Origin: Candidatus Tayloriibacteriota bacterium
GTDB lineage: Bacteria; Patescibacteriota; Minisyncoccia; Phycocordibacterales; PALSA-1337
DNA length: 32,956 nucleotides
Direction: 5' to 3'
NCBI GenBank assembly: GCA_903857825.1
Contig: CAIOGI010000008.1
Coordinates: 1-32,956, forward strand
Shown: one piece after another, positions 9,376 through 29,851 of the stretch
Layout: every line of letters begins with the position of its first letter
How positions within the stretch are numbered: position 1 is the first letter of the stretch
Notes under the pieces: generated by a model
Told to the model about the DNA's origin: nothing
Seen by the model: only the letters and a program-made list of their open reading frames with translations
Databases searched by the model: none
Position numbers and translations under genes: made by a program

Positions 9376-9963
9376 TCAGTACCGCCGCCGGAAAATCAAC
9401 ATGGCAGCGAGACTAACACCGACCAATGCGCACGTTGCCGGTTCTGGAACGGAGTAAGACAGAGTGCCTGACTCCCAAGACTCGCGAGTACCATGAAAGT
9501 CATCGCCATGCTGGTAAAATTGGATCTCAGCATGTGTGACCATCCCATTTAAACGCTCGAAGTCGAGAACTTTGAACCAGCCGCTCGACGCATTGTAACC
9601 ACGGCTGTCGCCGTATAGACCAAGCCCGGGATGTCCAGGTTCTTGGAAAGGCGCGCGCTGTGCGCCAGCGTAGGTGGTTCCCGACTGAAAGTCGGTACCA
9701 TCTGCCGTTGCGAACTCCAGACCCCAAACTGATGACCAGTCGGGAGTATGGATGGTGAGGATGAAGTCTCCAATACCGTTTGGCCCGCTGTTGTCAGTGA
9801 ATACGTACTCTGGCGAACCAATATCGAAAGTCTGGCCATTGTGGCCGACATAACTTTCTGGGGAACTCTCAAAGAGTAAAAGATTCCACTGCGCCATGGC
9901 ATTTCCAACCATCAACAAGGCAGCCGAGGTTACCAACACCGCAAGAACATTTTTGGTCTTCAT
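9376..9963 (-). CDS. Secreted PEP-CTERM sorting-domain protein
   Basis: Signal peptide MKTKNVLAVLVTSAALLMVGNAMAQ; C-terminus VPEPATCALVGVSLAAMLIFRRRY. Start at 9963 is preceded by GGGGGAG Shine-Dalgarno-like sequence. Confidence 0.85.
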   Translation of the reverse strand: MKTKNVLAVLVTSAALLMVGNAMAQWNLLLFESSPESYVGHNGQTFDIGSPEYVFTDNSGPNGIGDFILTIHTPDWSSVWGLEFATADGTDFQSGTTYAGAQRAPFQEPGHPGLGLYGDSRGYNASSGWFKVLDFERLNGMVTHAEIQFYQHGDDFHGTRESWESGTLSYSVPEPATCALVGVSLAAMLIFRRRY

Positions 9964-10037
9964 AACAGTAAAATCTCCCCCGCACATTCATTTACGTGCG
10001 ACGATCTTGTCGTTCTTTTTGGAAAGGAGCCTTCTAC

Positions 10038-17627: not shown

Positions 17628-17667
17628 CTTGATTTCCTCGCCAGATTTAGTAGACTATGTAAGTAAT

Positions 17668-17752
17668 GCCGAAGTGGCGGAATTGGCTATACGCACAACA
17701 CTCAAAATGTTGCGAGAGCAATCTCATGTGGGTTCGAGTCCCACCTTCGGCA
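17668..17752 (+). tRNA. tRNA-Leu(CAA)
   Basis: GCCGAAG/CTTCGGC acceptor, CAACA-CTCAAAA-TGTTG anticodon arm, long variable arm, GTGGG-TTCGAGT-CCCAC T arm; CCA not encoded. Confidence 0.95.
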
Positions 17753-17754
17753 CA

Positions 17755-18453
17755 ATGAATAATATAAAGAGATACAAGCCCAAAAGGGTGCAAAGTTTTG
17801 TTTTGTCAGCTGAACTTGCCTATGTTGTCGGTTTACTTGTAACTGATGGGTGTCTATCATCCGATGGCCGACATATTATATTTACCTCTAATGATATCGA
17901 GTCTATTGGAAATGTGATTAGAATACTTAAATTAAAAAATATAATTGGTTTTACAAGAAATAAAACGAGCGAAGTTTATAGAATACAGATTACCAATGTC
18001 CAATTATATGATTGGCTTATAAAAATTGGACTGAGTCCAGCTAAGTCATTAACCATTGGTGAAATAAACGTTCCTGACAAATATTTTGTTGACTTTCTCA
18101 GAGGACATCTTGATGGCGATGGTTCAATAACGACATACACCGATAGATATAATACGAAGAAAAATATAAAATATGTTTATGAAAGAATCTTTACGACATT
18201 CATTTCCGCAAGCAAAAAGCATATCTTATGGTTAAGAGATAGAATAATTTGTAATCTAGAAGTAAAAGGATCAATTCACAAAACAAAAATAAATAATACA
18301 TCCCCAAATCCTATTTACATTATTAAGTACGGAAAGAAAGAATCCATAAAATTGCTTGCGAAAATATATTATTCAAACAAGATACCATGCTTGTCACGTA
18401 AAAAGATAAAATATGAAAAATATTATAAAAAAACTCCACCGCTCCAGACTTAG
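17755..18453 (+). CDS. LAGLIDADG homing endonuclease-like protein immediately 3' of tRNA-Leu
   Basis: LAGLIDADG motifs AYVVGLLVTDGCLS and FLRGHLDGDGSIT; ATG at 17755 is 2 nt after the tRNA discriminator; the frame is open back through the whole tRNA (ORF track start 17629). Confidence 0.85.
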   Translation: MNNIKRYKPKRVQSFVLSAELAYVVGLLVTDGCLSSDGRHIIFTSNDIESIGNVIRILKLKNIIGFTRNKTSEVYRIQITNVQLYDWLIKIGLSPAKSLTIGEINVPDKYFVDFLRGHLDGDGSITTYTDRYNTKKNIKYVYERIFTTFISASKKHILWLRDRIICNLEVKGSIHKTKINNTSPNPIYIIKYGKKESIKLLAKIYYSNKIPCLSRKKIKYEKYYKKTPPLQT

Positions 18454-21014: not shown

Positions 21015-22052
21015 TCATTGACTGGGTACCGGTGTTAACGGCACAGGTTCCGCATCCCAGCGACTTGCCCAATAATAGCGCATGCCGTAGTTTCCACTCT
21101 GGAAGTCCAGGACGAGACTCCTGTTTGTCCCCATTCTATATTGCATAGAGTGGAGAGGGTCTGACATGTGCCAAATACTTACTGCTTCGGCCATTTCCGT
21201 CGTCTGAGTACCGTTGTTGTTGTCAAAAACAGCAGCGGCACCCAGAAACACAGTCCGATTTGTTGTCGTCACGAATTGTACAAGCGGATTTCTTCGTTCA
21301 CGAATCTCGTCACCAGACACGATTACCACAACCGTGTTGGTGTTGACAATGGAACGAAAGCCGAGCAGATGGATCTTCTGTTCAATCCTCAAGCTTGTAG
21401 GCAGGATTTGCCTGCCGCCACGTAAAGCATATGCATGCTGAACACCATCCTCGGTGGTAACAACAATCTCGCCATTTTTTCCAGCGAATGATGTTGCTAC
21501 CATGAACCCAGATCCTTCCCTCACCCCGAACTCGTTGTCCGAGTAGAAGCGGATAGGATTTCCGTTTGAATCTCGCTCAACGGCATAAACCCAGTGAACC
21601 CCATTGAATGGGATCCAGATCTTGTCAGAAATCCTGAGCTTAACAGGTATCTTGACAGTGCCGTTTGAGGACGGTGACCAGCCGTAGCCGTCGAATAGGT
21701 TGTAACCAAACTCGTCGTAGAGACCGACCCAACTACTGACCATTTTGTTGGTGTAAAGAACAAACAGCGACAGACGCTGAGTCTCCACCAACTGTACGGC
21801 ATCAGCTAAAATGACGCCGTTAGTGCCTGGCCGATACTCACCGAACCAGTACGATCCTTGACCAGAATTGACGGTTCCATCAGCCCCAACGTTCGCACCA
21901 GCGAAGCGGATGCGATTGATGGCGAATGACTGGATCTGATCCAGACTGCCGATCGGTAGTTGATCCGGCGGTGGTGTAGGGACAGTCTGTGACAGCACGG
22001 ACGTGGTTACAAGGGTGGCCAAGGCCAGCGCAAGTAGGTTGATTGTCTTCAT
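21015..22052 (-). CDS. Secreted hypothetical protein
   Basis: Signal peptide MKTINLLALALATLVTTSVLSQ; GC-richer ORF. Confidence 0.8.
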   Translation of the reverse strand: MKTINLLALALATLVTTSVLSQTVPTPPPDQLPIGSLDQIQSFAINRIRFAGANVGADGTVNSGQGSYWFGEYRPGTNGVILADAVQLVETQRLSLFVLYTNKMVSSWVGLYDEFGYNLFDGYGWSPSSNGTVKIPVKLRISDKIWIPFNGVHWVYAVERDSNGNPIRFYSDNEFGVREGSGFMVATSFAGKNGEIVVTTEDGVQHAYALRGGRQILPTSLRIEQKIHLLGFRSIVNTNTVVVIVSGDEIRERRNPLVQFVTTTNRTVFLGAAAVFDNNNGTQTTEMAEAVSIWHMSDPLHSMQYRMGTNRSLVLDFQSGNYGMRYYWASRWDAEPVPLTPVPSQ

Positions 22053-22093
22053 TTCTTTGCTTTGTCTTTCTTTTTTTTTACTGTTGTTTTCCG

Positions 22094-22435
22094 TTATCTC
22101 ACAGGCGACACCACATTGGTGTCAACTTTTGGTTTTCTGCGAGAAATTATTTCCAGTAGCTGACCCTCGCCATTTGTAATGGCGATCGAATCTACTGGTG
22201 GAGGTGGAACCTCCGATGTGAATCGGGGTTCAGTCACCACCACAATTTCAAAGCCGTTCGTCGCCGCGGGAGCAACCTGCTCCTGCTGAGTGGCCGCTGC
22301 CCGCTCCTCTTCTCTGACGAAGTATAGATAGAGCGAGATAAAGCCAATCACGACTGCGAGCACCAACAACATTGCAATTAGCAGTCCAAAACCGTTATCT
22401 TTTTTTGACGTTCCGGAGTAGATAGGTCCTGACAT
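22094..22435 (-). CDS. Single-pass membrane hypothetical protein
   Basis: TM segment FGLLIAMLLVLAVVIGFISLYLYFV; directly upstream of 21015-22052. Confidence 0.75.
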   Translation of the reverse strand: MSGPIYSGTSKKDNGFGLLIAMLLVLAVVIGFISLYLYFVREEERAAATQQEQVAPAATNGFEIVVVTEPRFTSEVPPPPVDSIAITNGEGQLLEIISRRKPKVDTNVVSPVR

Positions 22436-27893: not shown

Positions 27894-27977
27894 TCTGGGC
27901 ATAACGCTCTTTGAATTGCGACACTGAAATCAAGGAGCAAAACCAAAACCGCCTCAATGAGGCAGAAAGAAAAAATT

Positions 27978-28508
27978 ATGGAGAGTAGAGACCAGGCCAA
28001 ACGCAGGGTCATTCCTGTTTTTGGAAAGTTGAACCATGAGACAATTGTCAAAATCATGGGCGAAGTCATTGCCCTTACTGCAGAAGATCCGGAAAAGAAA
28101 ATCAGCCTAGTGATCTGTTCTGGAGGTGGAATGGTGGAACCAGGTTTTGCTTTTATTGATATGCTGAAGGTCCAAAAGATAAGCATCACAACGATCGGAA
28201 CTGGAGGCGTCGGTTCAATGGCTGTCATGTTGTTTGCAAGTGGCGATCGAAGGCTAGTCACCAAACACACAGTCTTCTTCCTCCACGACTTTGGATTCCA
28301 TCCAAATAAGGACGAAAGGGTGTCCTTGAATGAACTTCGGCGAAAAACAGATGACTTCCAAATCGGACAGCAGTGGTACGCCGATTATATCCAAGAACAA
28401 ACTGACGGCAAGTTTCAGGCGTCCGAGGTTCTTCGGATGATGAAGGAGGAAACCAACCTTTACCCCGATGACCTGATCAGACTTGGTCTCGCACACGAGA
28501 TCATCTGA
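27978..28508 (+). CDS. ClpP/crotonase-fold serine protease-like protein
   Basis: ISLVICSGGGMVEPGFAFIDMLK, GTGGVGSMAVMLFASGDRRLVTKHTVFFLHDF (Ser/His context of ClpP), LYPDDLIRLGLAHEI. Confidence 0.75.
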   Translation: MESRDQAKRRVIPVFGKLNHETIVKIMGEVIALTAEDPEKKISLVICSGGGMVEPGFAFIDMLKVQKISITTIGTGGVGSMAVMLFASGDRRLVTKHTVFFLHDFGFHPNKDERVSLNELRRKTDDFQIGQQWYADYIQEQTDGKFQASEVLRMMKEETNLYPDDLIRLGLAHEII

Positions 28509-28527
28509 CCTCCACCCCCCCCTTCGC

Positions 28528-28562
28528 AGCCAGACTTCTCACAGAGTCCGGCTGTTTTTTTA
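28528..28562 (+). terminator. Intrinsic terminator of ClpP-like gene
   Basis: CAGCCAGAC-10 nt-GTCCGGCTG-TTTTTTT. Confidence 0.85.
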
Positions 28563-28570
28563 TATTTTAA

Positions 28571-28598
28571 TTGACTTCAAAAGTAGATTTGCTAATAT
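28571..28598 (+). promoter_or_regulatory. Promoter of candidate small RNA
   Basis: TTGACT (28571-28576) - 16 nt - TAATAT (28593-28598), extended TGC. Confidence 0.7.
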
Positions 28599-28604
28599 AT
28601 GTAC

Positions 28605-28700
28605 ATAATCCTTGCGAACCCTTAGTCTAAAAGCTAAGATGGTTCAGTTCGACACTATTGTTGACAGCAAGAATTCACAGGCCTCCTTCGGGAGGTTTTG
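28605..28700 (+). ncRNA. Candidate structured small RNA (about 95 nt)
   Basis: Closing stem CTTGC/GCAAG around hairpin GAACC-CTTAG/CTAAG-(AT)-GGTTC and hairpin TCGACA-CTAT-TGTTGA, then UUCG-capped terminator CCTCC-TTCG-GGAGG-TTTT. Confidence 0.6.
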
Positions 28701-28702
28701 TG

Positions 28703-29077
28703 TTATTCATCCATAATACTAAAGAAATGTAGATTACCATTATCACCTAGTCTCCTTAAGATGATGCGGATCTTTTTCCCCTTAACCAAACCTTTAATTG
28801 TCCAGAAATATGCATGATTATTGTTCTTAACCCTCTTTTCTTCGCTTTCAACAGTCTTTAATTTTAAAAGTAAATTAGGAACGTAAGGCAACAATTCAAA
28901 TCTTTCAATCACCTCATTTCTTACTCTAGGAACCCCTAGTTTATAGATTAAATGATAAAAACCATGATGATTAAAATACACATTCTCACCCTGAAAGGCT
29001 GGACAAGCAATATGTCCAATCATTTTATACTTTTTTCTTTCGTTTTCGATGAATTGTTTCCAATCTATATTTTTCAT
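28703..29077 (-). CDS. Hypothetical protein
   Basis: 124 aa ORF ending GKKIRIILRRLGDNGNLHFFSIMDE. Confidence 0.6.
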   Translation of the reverse strand: MKNIDWKQFIENERKKYKMIGHIACPAFQGENVYFNHHGFYHLIYKLGVPRVRNEVIERFELLPYVPNLLLKLKTVESEEKRVKNNNHAYFWTIKGLVKGKKIRIILRRLGDNGNLHFFSIMDE

Positions 29078-29201
29078 CCCCTCACCCTAACAAAAAGTTA
29101 TTAAGAAATTTTAAAGAAAAGTTAAAGAAATGATAAAGATTTCAGTTACAACACAAAAAGTTCCTTTGTCGCAAGCAGATTTCTCCCAAAATTAAAAGTA
29201 G

Positions 29202-29371
29202 TATACGACATTGTTTAATTTATTAAACAATTTACACTCCTATGATACGACTTATTTCACATGCGCTGTACTCAGCGAATTTGTGAAATAGAAGTGCCCT
29301 TGTGGTACAACCTAATTTTCTTGAGCGAAGCGATTAGAAAATGGAAGTAGTCTTGTGCTATAATCCTCCAC
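29202..29371 (+). promoter_or_regulatory. Tandem hairpin / extended -10 array upstream of the DUF4446-like gene
   Basis: Hairpins 29211-29230, 29253-29290, 29315-29342, each followed after 15, 15 and 16 nt by TGATACGAC, TGGTACAAC, TGCTATAAT; an additional TATACGAC at 29202. Confidence 0.75.
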
Positions 29372-29851
29372 ATGAACATCCCCACAGAATACATTTTAAT
29401 TTTACTTATTATTTTAGTCGTCATTGTCCTGGTCCTCATTGGCCTAGTTATTCATTTAAATACCAAATTAAAGAAATTCCTTATCGGCTCATCATCCAAG
29501 AATCTTGATGACTCTATAACGACCATGAATGGTTCTATAAATGAGCTTGAGAAATTCCGCGTAGATCTAGAAAAATATTTAACAACTGTTGAGAAAAGAA
29601 TGAAGAAAAGCGTTCAAGCGGTTCAAACTGTACGCTTCAATCCTTTCAAGGGTAATGGCTCAGGAGGAAATCAGAGCTTCGCCACAGCATTCTTAAACGA
29701 AGACAGTAATGGCGTTGTCATTTCTAGCCTATACTCTAGAGAACATGTAAGTGTGTATTCAAAGCCAGTTAAGAATGGCGTCTCTGAATATGAACTTTCA
29801 GAGGAAGAAAAACAGGCTATTGGAGAGGCGAGAAAAGTTGTGAGGGATTAA
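29372..29851 (+). CDS. DUF4446-like membrane-anchored coiled-coil protein
   Basis: N-terminal TM, coiled coil, then QAVQTVRFNPFKGNGSGGNQSFATAFLNEDSNGVVISSLYSREHVSVYSKPV. Confidence 0.8.
   Translation: MNIPTEYILILLIILVVIVLVLIGLVIHLNTKLKKFLIGSSSKNLDDSITTMNGSINELEKFRVDLEKYLTTVEKRMKKSVQAVQTVRFNPFKGNGSGGNQSFATAFLNEDSNGVVISSLYSREHVSVYSKPVKNGVSEYELSEEEKQAIGEARKVVRD

Follow-up and report, generated by a model that had tools for sequence, protein, structure and literature searches.

A hairpin array in the promoter of a DUF4446-family gene is very probably made of small mobile elements inserted in the -10 box

Introduction

In the genome of a Candidatus Tayloriibacteriota bacterium, three hairpins follow one another upstream of a DUF4446-family gene, and each precedes a box that resembles an extended -10 element. 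This layout raises the question of whether the hairpins are working parts of the promoter or have come to it from elsewhere. A first-pass annotation of the window (the whole stretch of 32,956 nucleotides that was analysed) took the hairpins to be unrelated in sequence and saw, in their constant distance to the boxes, selection on the structure itself. It proposed a hairpin-assisted promoter, a recombining promoter array or a site for a hairpin-recognising protein. Here, we compare the array with its source genome (G000), with a sister genome (G003) and with other Parcubacteria-type genomes.

Results

The hairpins belong to a dispersed repeat

The three hairpins are positioned at 29210-29231, 29253-29290 and 29315-29342, and about 15 nt after each of them stands a box (TGATACGAC, TGGTACAAC and TGCTATAAT, respectively). 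An extra TATACGAC is indeed present ahead of the first hairpin. The last box ends 7 nt before the start of the downstream gene (29372-29851, + strand), whose family is confirmed by Pfam (PF14584, E=1.7e-37) and which is represented by orthologs in 51 of 61 genomes. In several relatives, a cysteine desulfurase gene seems to have stayed directly divergent from the DUF4446 gene; in the window, a ClpP-like gene and an orphan ORF (27957-29077) lie between the two.

A 374 kb part of G000 was scanned for modules composed of a hairpin, 10-20 nt and a TGNTAYNAY box. Modules with a spacing of 10-16 nt numbered 15, against a mean of 3.0 in Markov resamples, which is above background. The matches of the scan are mostly copies of window sequences, showing that the hairpins belong to a dispersed repeat. 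Unit 2 of the array (see below) shares 98% identity with a unit on contig C3 of G000, and unit 3 shares 92% with one on contig C1 of this genome and with copies in the Taylorbacteria genome G080. Hence, the hairpins are copies of a repeat, contrary to their initial description as sequence-unrelated. The probability that AT-rich hairpins stand near a promoter in this way by chance is negligible: AT-rich sequence does yield some modules, as the resamples show, and the third hairpin alone folds like shuffled sequences, but near-identical copies occur elsewhere in G000 and in other genera, and the stems covary.

Architecture of the units and of the array

The element is a dispersed unit of 42-62 nt, comprising a 5' CGAC head, a hairpin and a 3' tail (GAAGTRCYCTTGTGGTR in the aligned copies). 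Nearly all copies start with CGAC (or CAAC/TGAC) and finish with GTGGTR. The stems fall into recurrent types, named A (TATTTCACA/TGTGAAATA, inner GCTG/CAGC), B (AATTTCTTAC/GTGTAGAAATT), C (ATTTTCT/AGAAAAT, loop GAGCRAAGCGA) and D (TTGTTTGA/TCAAACAA).

In the window, the feature is best bounded as 29206-29360 and contains three units, all on the + strand, in the order D (decayed)-A-C. Unit 1 (29206-29247), of D type with a decayed tail, consists of CGAC, the hairpin ATTGTTTAAT/ATTAAACAAT and TTTACACTCCTATGATA; it has D-type relatives in G000 and in other genomes, and its stem covaries. Unit 2 (29248-29307), of A type, consists of CGAC, the TATTTCACA/TGTGAAATA hairpin with inner arms CGCTG/CAGCG, and GAAGTGCCCTTGTGGTA, and scores 88 bits with a covariance model of the unit. 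Unit 3 (29308-29360), of C type, consists of CAAC, the ATTTTCT/AGAAAAT hairpin and GGAAGTAGTCTTGTGCTA; it scores 57.7 bits and shares the covariation of the C class.

On the left, the host flank ...CAAAATTAAAAGTAGTATA (29184-29205, + strand) aligns with G003 CCTAAATTAAAAATGGTATA^TAATCC; it holds the part of the DUF4446 promoter that ends at base 2 of the -10 hexamer. On the right, the host TAAT (29361-29364, + strand) is the downstream piece of the interrupted -10, and this junction matches G003 TATA^TAATCCTAGTTATG. The extended -10 TGCTATAAT (29356-29364, + strand), 7 nt upstream of the ATG, is thereby rebuilt half from the element and half from the host, its TGCTA coming from the tail of unit 3. 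On the other hand, the inner boxes are made of the tail GGTA of one unit and the head CGAC of the next. The fixed spacing of 15-16 nt that had drawn attention to the locus is real, and it reflects the length of the conserved tail GAAGTRCYCTTGTGG rather than promoter geometry.

Across G000, inner junctions read TACGAC, TACAAC or CACGAC, never with the final T of a -10. Ends adjoining a gene read TATAAT at most loci, or else CAAT, AAAT or ATAT after TA. Arrays of mixed types are found (A-B-A-A, B-A, C-A, A-C and D-A-C), which fits separate insertions better than tandem duplication. In an Rfam scan, neither the window nor the largest array matched any RNA family except tRNA.

Pairing is kept while stem sequences drift

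The sequence of the hairpin drifts and its pairing is kept. In the D class, represented by 19 units from several genomes in an ungapped alignment, 97.4% of the cells pair; two-sided changes affect 26 cells, whereas shuffles give 9.4 (sd 2.0). In the C class (13 units), pairing reaches 100%. The covariation score was attained by 0 of 500 shuffles in each class, a count that is not a probability since the sequences within the classes are related and not independent. Shifting the partner by one column abolished the signal in both classes. Folded as DNA and compared with shuffles, window hairpins 1 and 2 have z values of -4.6 and -4.7, respectively; hairpin 3 alone folds no better than shuffles (z -0.6), and its support comes from covariation. 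This strong compensatory change in the stems bears out the proposal that the structure itself is conserved.

The -10 boxes are uninterrupted in a sister genome

The covariance model found 25 matches in G000, and searches within this genome identified 11 promoter-type loci, in addition to D-type copies elsewhere. Units other than D-type lie within promoters in G000, in a single orientation. The same model gave 0 matches in G003 and one weak match each in G004 and G005, of the same genus; by BLAST, no strong unit was found in the other six examined genomes of the genus.

The genes located 3' of the arrays were identified in G003 at 50-92% protein identity, and their promoters were then compared. 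At 10 of the 10 promoters with an ortholog, the G003 -10 box is uninterrupted at the junction and there is no unit. Most of these boxes are of the form TGNTAHAAT (TGGTATATAAT for DUF4446, TGATACAAT, TGTTAAAAT at two loci, TGTTATAAT at five loci, and TGATATAAT); the RmuC locus has no match in G003. Because TGNTAHAAT occurs at only 1.6e-4 of strand positions, chance cannot explain this result. At the window gene, G003 ...TTAAAAATGGTATATAATCCTAGTTATG corresponds to G000 ...TTAAAAGTAGTATA[array]TAATCCTCCACATG, and both flanks align (G003 CCTAAATTAAAAATGGTATATAATCCTAGTTATG, G000 CCAAAATTAAAAGTAGTATA^TAATCCTCCACATG). At the other promoter loci, the junction on the right is clear; the one on the left was judged by the TGNTA motif, left-flank homology with G003 being only partial because upstream units are truncated or flanks have diverged. 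The cut separates the second base of the -10 hexamer from the third (TGNTA^TAAT). The N of the left TGNTA usually differs from that of the right one, and therefore the tail belongs to the element and is not a target duplication, except possibly for TA.

For D-type units, empty sites are observed within G000 itself, where a second inverted repeat reads GAGCG^CAAGTCG with or without a unit. This second dispersed family is intergenic, about 105-190 nt long (AAAATTGAGACTCGRCGCGGTGAGG...CGAGTCCAATTTT), and has an internal hairpin and outermost bases that possibly co-vary; D-type units often lie in its loops (sites L033:1925-2080, L035(-), L036(-), L041:18158, L043:13805, L045:6736, L047(-):13194 and L049(-)). 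A similar element is present in G080.

These observations bear on the reading in which each hairpin forms, with its box, a promoter of its own and acts at the -35 region. The hairpin-box geometry is real, the 3' stem arm overlaps the -35 position, and the last box is an excellent extended -10. However, the inner boxes never end in T, whereas nearly all promoter-end boxes are TATAAT or CAAT/AAAT; moreover, orthologous promoters have no hairpin, and units are also found outside promoters, next to tRNA ends or at the tips of palindromes. We consider such tandem hairpin-assisted promoters very improbable. The array is associated with a promoter, as the first-pass annotation stated, without being a series of hairpin-assisted promoters, since its inner boxes are unit junctions. 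That annotation had itself named a lack of hairpins in orthologous regions as grounds for refuting its reading; hairpins are lacking there, which points to insertion instead.

Promoter context and downstream genes

TGNTAHAAT is present between -40 and -5 of 33/367 and 70/681 genes in the two genomes G000 and G003, against 3/367 and 5/681 between -200 and -165, and in both genomes it is commonest 6-9 nt before the ATG. This suggests that leaderless mRNAs transcribed from extended -10 (TGNTATAAT) promoters are common in the lineage, and the transcript of the DUF4446 gene is probably leaderless. With TGNTATAAT placed 6-9 nt before the ATG, as in a leaderless-type layout, insertions would be tolerable: judging from the sequence, an upstream insertion whose tail supplies TGNTA should change neither the core promoter nor the transcript start. 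At most promoter loci, TGNTATAAT is rebuilt in sequence.

The genes downstream of the 11 promoter loci include those for a PilB-type ATPase, PilM, a T4SS coupling protein, an MFS transporter, RmuC, DUF4446, DUF5652 and an ABC ATPase. The units could be binding sites of a regulator, kept or spread by selection for co-regulation, and at 11 genes, some of them related to pilus or secretion, they do directly precede the core promoter. However, the downstream genes are mixed and form no coherent regulon, the stem sequence is unconserved, contrary to what an operator would require, and many units of other genomes lie outside promoters, so that a regulatory operator is quite unlikely.

Units in other Parcubacteria-type genomes

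The same tail and architecture are present in at least nine other Parcubacteria-type genomes. A public genome collection scanned for GAAGTRCYCYTGTGGTAYRAY gave 19 stretches, where about 8 would be expected by chance (an estimate); roughly ten of the 19 are Parcubacteria-type (Vogelbacteria, Taylorbacteria, Kaiserbacteria and others). The covariance model has matches in nine of those genomes, from 1 to 40 each, with 40 in G080. A promoter junction of the TGNTA^TAAT type was also observed in G079, G082, G083, G085 and G086.

Most units of the other genomes are located outside promoters. At 15 of 93 non-promoter junctions, the unit is at a palindrome apex, with at least 8 complementary flanking bases, as compared to 1.4% of random positions, many of these junctions representing one repeat family (GATCCCGTT..AACGGGATGAC) in G080. 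At locus L242, the palindrome with the unit is a 16-pair stem that resembles a terminator and precedes a T-run. Units also adjoin tRNA 3' ends in antisense (L231, L142, L135, L283 and L297), where the tail TGGT is the complement of the tRNA ACCA end. In G080 (Taylorbacteria LacPavin), loci L239-L270 contain many copies of a palindrome, GTCATCCCGTT..AACGGGATCCA, that resembles CGTC-tagged REPs, and a large share of those seen carry a unit at the tip.

Search for a mobilising enzyme

G000 gave no match to a Y1/RAYT transposase, a serine recombinase or a reverse transcriptase. The Y1_Tnp family (PF01797) is absent from G000, G079, G083 and G084, and no unit was found near any of 26 Y1_Tnp loci in other genomes. 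As mobilisers, serine recombinases and reverse transcriptases were rejected because several or most of the unit-bearing genomes lack them or they are not linked to units; IS110 was rejected as well, PF01548 occurring in just two of the genomes (G000 and G080) and at loci where there is no unit. Tyrosine recombinases (PF00589) are present in 9 of the 10 unit-bearing genomes searched, and two of them lie close to units (G081 C47 and G082 C7). They are probably housekeeping Xer enzymes, their closeness to units having been noticed post hoc. Gene-content comparison of G000 and G003, covering half of the genome, revealed no obvious mobiliser candidate.

An XerC/D-type tyrosine recombinase gene of G000 (L313:676-2874, - strand, corresponding to C1:42675-44873) carries an in-frame intein-like insert with LAGLIDADG-type motifs, located at the conserved catalytic segment HVIRH^SFATDLL. 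In the window, an ORF with LAGLIDADG-like motifs (17629-18453, + strand), directly after a tRNA gene (17668-17752), probably encodes a homing endonuclease. A PEP-CTERM-like secreted protein and two more proteins encoded in the window (9376-9987 and 21015-22435, both - strand) have no homologs in G003 and are possible horizontal acquisitions.

A mobiliser compatible with insertion would be a Y1 (RAYT) transposase, lost here or acting in trans, with the units as REP or IS200/IS605-derived elements. The single hairpin with unpaired head and tail, the strong stem covariation and the Y1_Tnp genes of several unit-bearing genomes agree with this idea. In addition, among the GTAG- or CGTC-tagged palindromes known as REP, BIME or REPIN, CGTC REPs are likewise without a known dedicated transposase, and some REPs, in some species, sit inside other palindromes (PMC3733652). 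Against it stand the four genomes without Y1_Tnp, the 26 Y1 loci without a nearby unit, and the lack of both GTAG and CGTC tags on the units. We regard a Y1 mobiliser as doubtful.

Discussion

Very probably, the array is made of a mobile element of Parcubacteria-type bacteria that is non-coding, has a single hairpin and is present here in three copies, inserted in a -10 box. A unit would enter the promoter within the -10 hexamer, after its second base (TGNTA^TAAT), and its tail, ending in TGNTA, would rebuild the extended -10, while the short leader and the start codon would stay in place. The rebuilt target could then accept further units, giving rise to mixed-type tandem arrays in which only the last box would be a real -10 (TATAAT). 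Promoter activity would be retained.

The units may spread by transposition, through an enzyme recognising the hairpin on single-stranded DNA and using the stem as its binding site. Single-stranded DNA is proposed because the -10 of open complexes and the tips of palindromes can expose a strand. Gene conversion or homologous recombination between promoters may have spread some of the copies. The recombining or hairpin-recognising activity put forward in the first-pass annotation is plausible. A more specific and tentative possibility is a self-healing micro-transposon that enters transiently single-stranded DNA. In open promoter complexes this would be the non-template strand, and elsewhere tRNA ends and the tips of extruded palindromes or terminators. 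The hairpin and tail would be selected to restore promoter, terminator or tRNA function, and an undescribed Parcubacteria enzyme would drive the process; the cut sits at the upstream edge of the melted -10.

Some recombination systems and phage modules resemble the units in part. tRNA-targeting integrative elements insert in an essential site and restore it. The units also restore their target, and several adjoin tRNA 3' ends with a tail reading as the complement of the CCA end; in contrast, they are non-coding, 40-60 nt long, and no attachment-site pair was identified. T4-type phages have promoter-early-stem-loop cassettes, in which stem-loop and promoter modules form mosaic arrays and the cassette contains a complete promoter. 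From this general description, the units are alike in their mosaic stem-loop modules, but the cassettes are phage early promoters. Mobile promoters are reportedly recognised by whole-promoter similarity. For the units, in contrast, the boundary falls within the -10, half of the box still being host sequence. Like the units, mobile promoters are short intergenic repeats that are located upstream of genes and spread in genomes (Matus-Garcia et al. 2012 and van Passel et al. 2014, as cited in PMC8049555).

In form, REPs, which are reported mainly downstream of genes (PMC3733652), are nearest to the units. Both are short palindromes dispersed in many copies, also in tandem clusters, and have unpaired tags and stems that vary while staying paired, dispersal and pairing being evidenced here by 25 copies in G000, 40 in G080, and the covariation. 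However, the units have a CGAC tag, instead of an unpaired GTAG or CGTC, and a conserved 17-nt 3' tail; they have no RAYT association and insert in one orientation in promoter -10 boxes, which are rebuilt. A Y1 transposase flanked by the element, as for the IS200/IS605-derived REPIN and PATE, was not found. The units do not conform to MITEs, as the CGAC and GTGGTR ends are not inverted repeats and there is no duplication beyond a possible TA, nor to IS110 targets or passengers, with no unit at PF01548 loci. By inspection, unit boundaries show no GTTRRRY of integron attC sites, and one of the tyrosine recombinases found is XerC/D-like.

The Correia repeat enclosed elements of Neisseria are non-coding mobile repeats, 69-157 bp long, that have terminal inverted repeats and duplicate their target; a -10 can be completed by their end where they join the host (Black promoter), promoters being created only in favourable places (PMC2649163). 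The units share with them insertion at TA and, in sequence, the -10 completed at the junction. They differ in length (42-62 nt) and in lacking terminal inverted repeats, and they enter an existing promoter and restore it. A limited literature search found no earlier description of palindromic repeats in Patescibacteria. We rate the units as a kind of mobile palindromic repeat with an unusual target and self-repair.

If true, this would clearly illustrate how mobile DNA can target the promoter -10 box itself and repair it, comparably to integrases that restore the tRNA genes they target. The loci would provide a natural series of promoter insertions in a tiny-genome lineage whose gene regulation is little known, and they would point to a hairpin-acting enzyme yet to be found in Patescibacteria.
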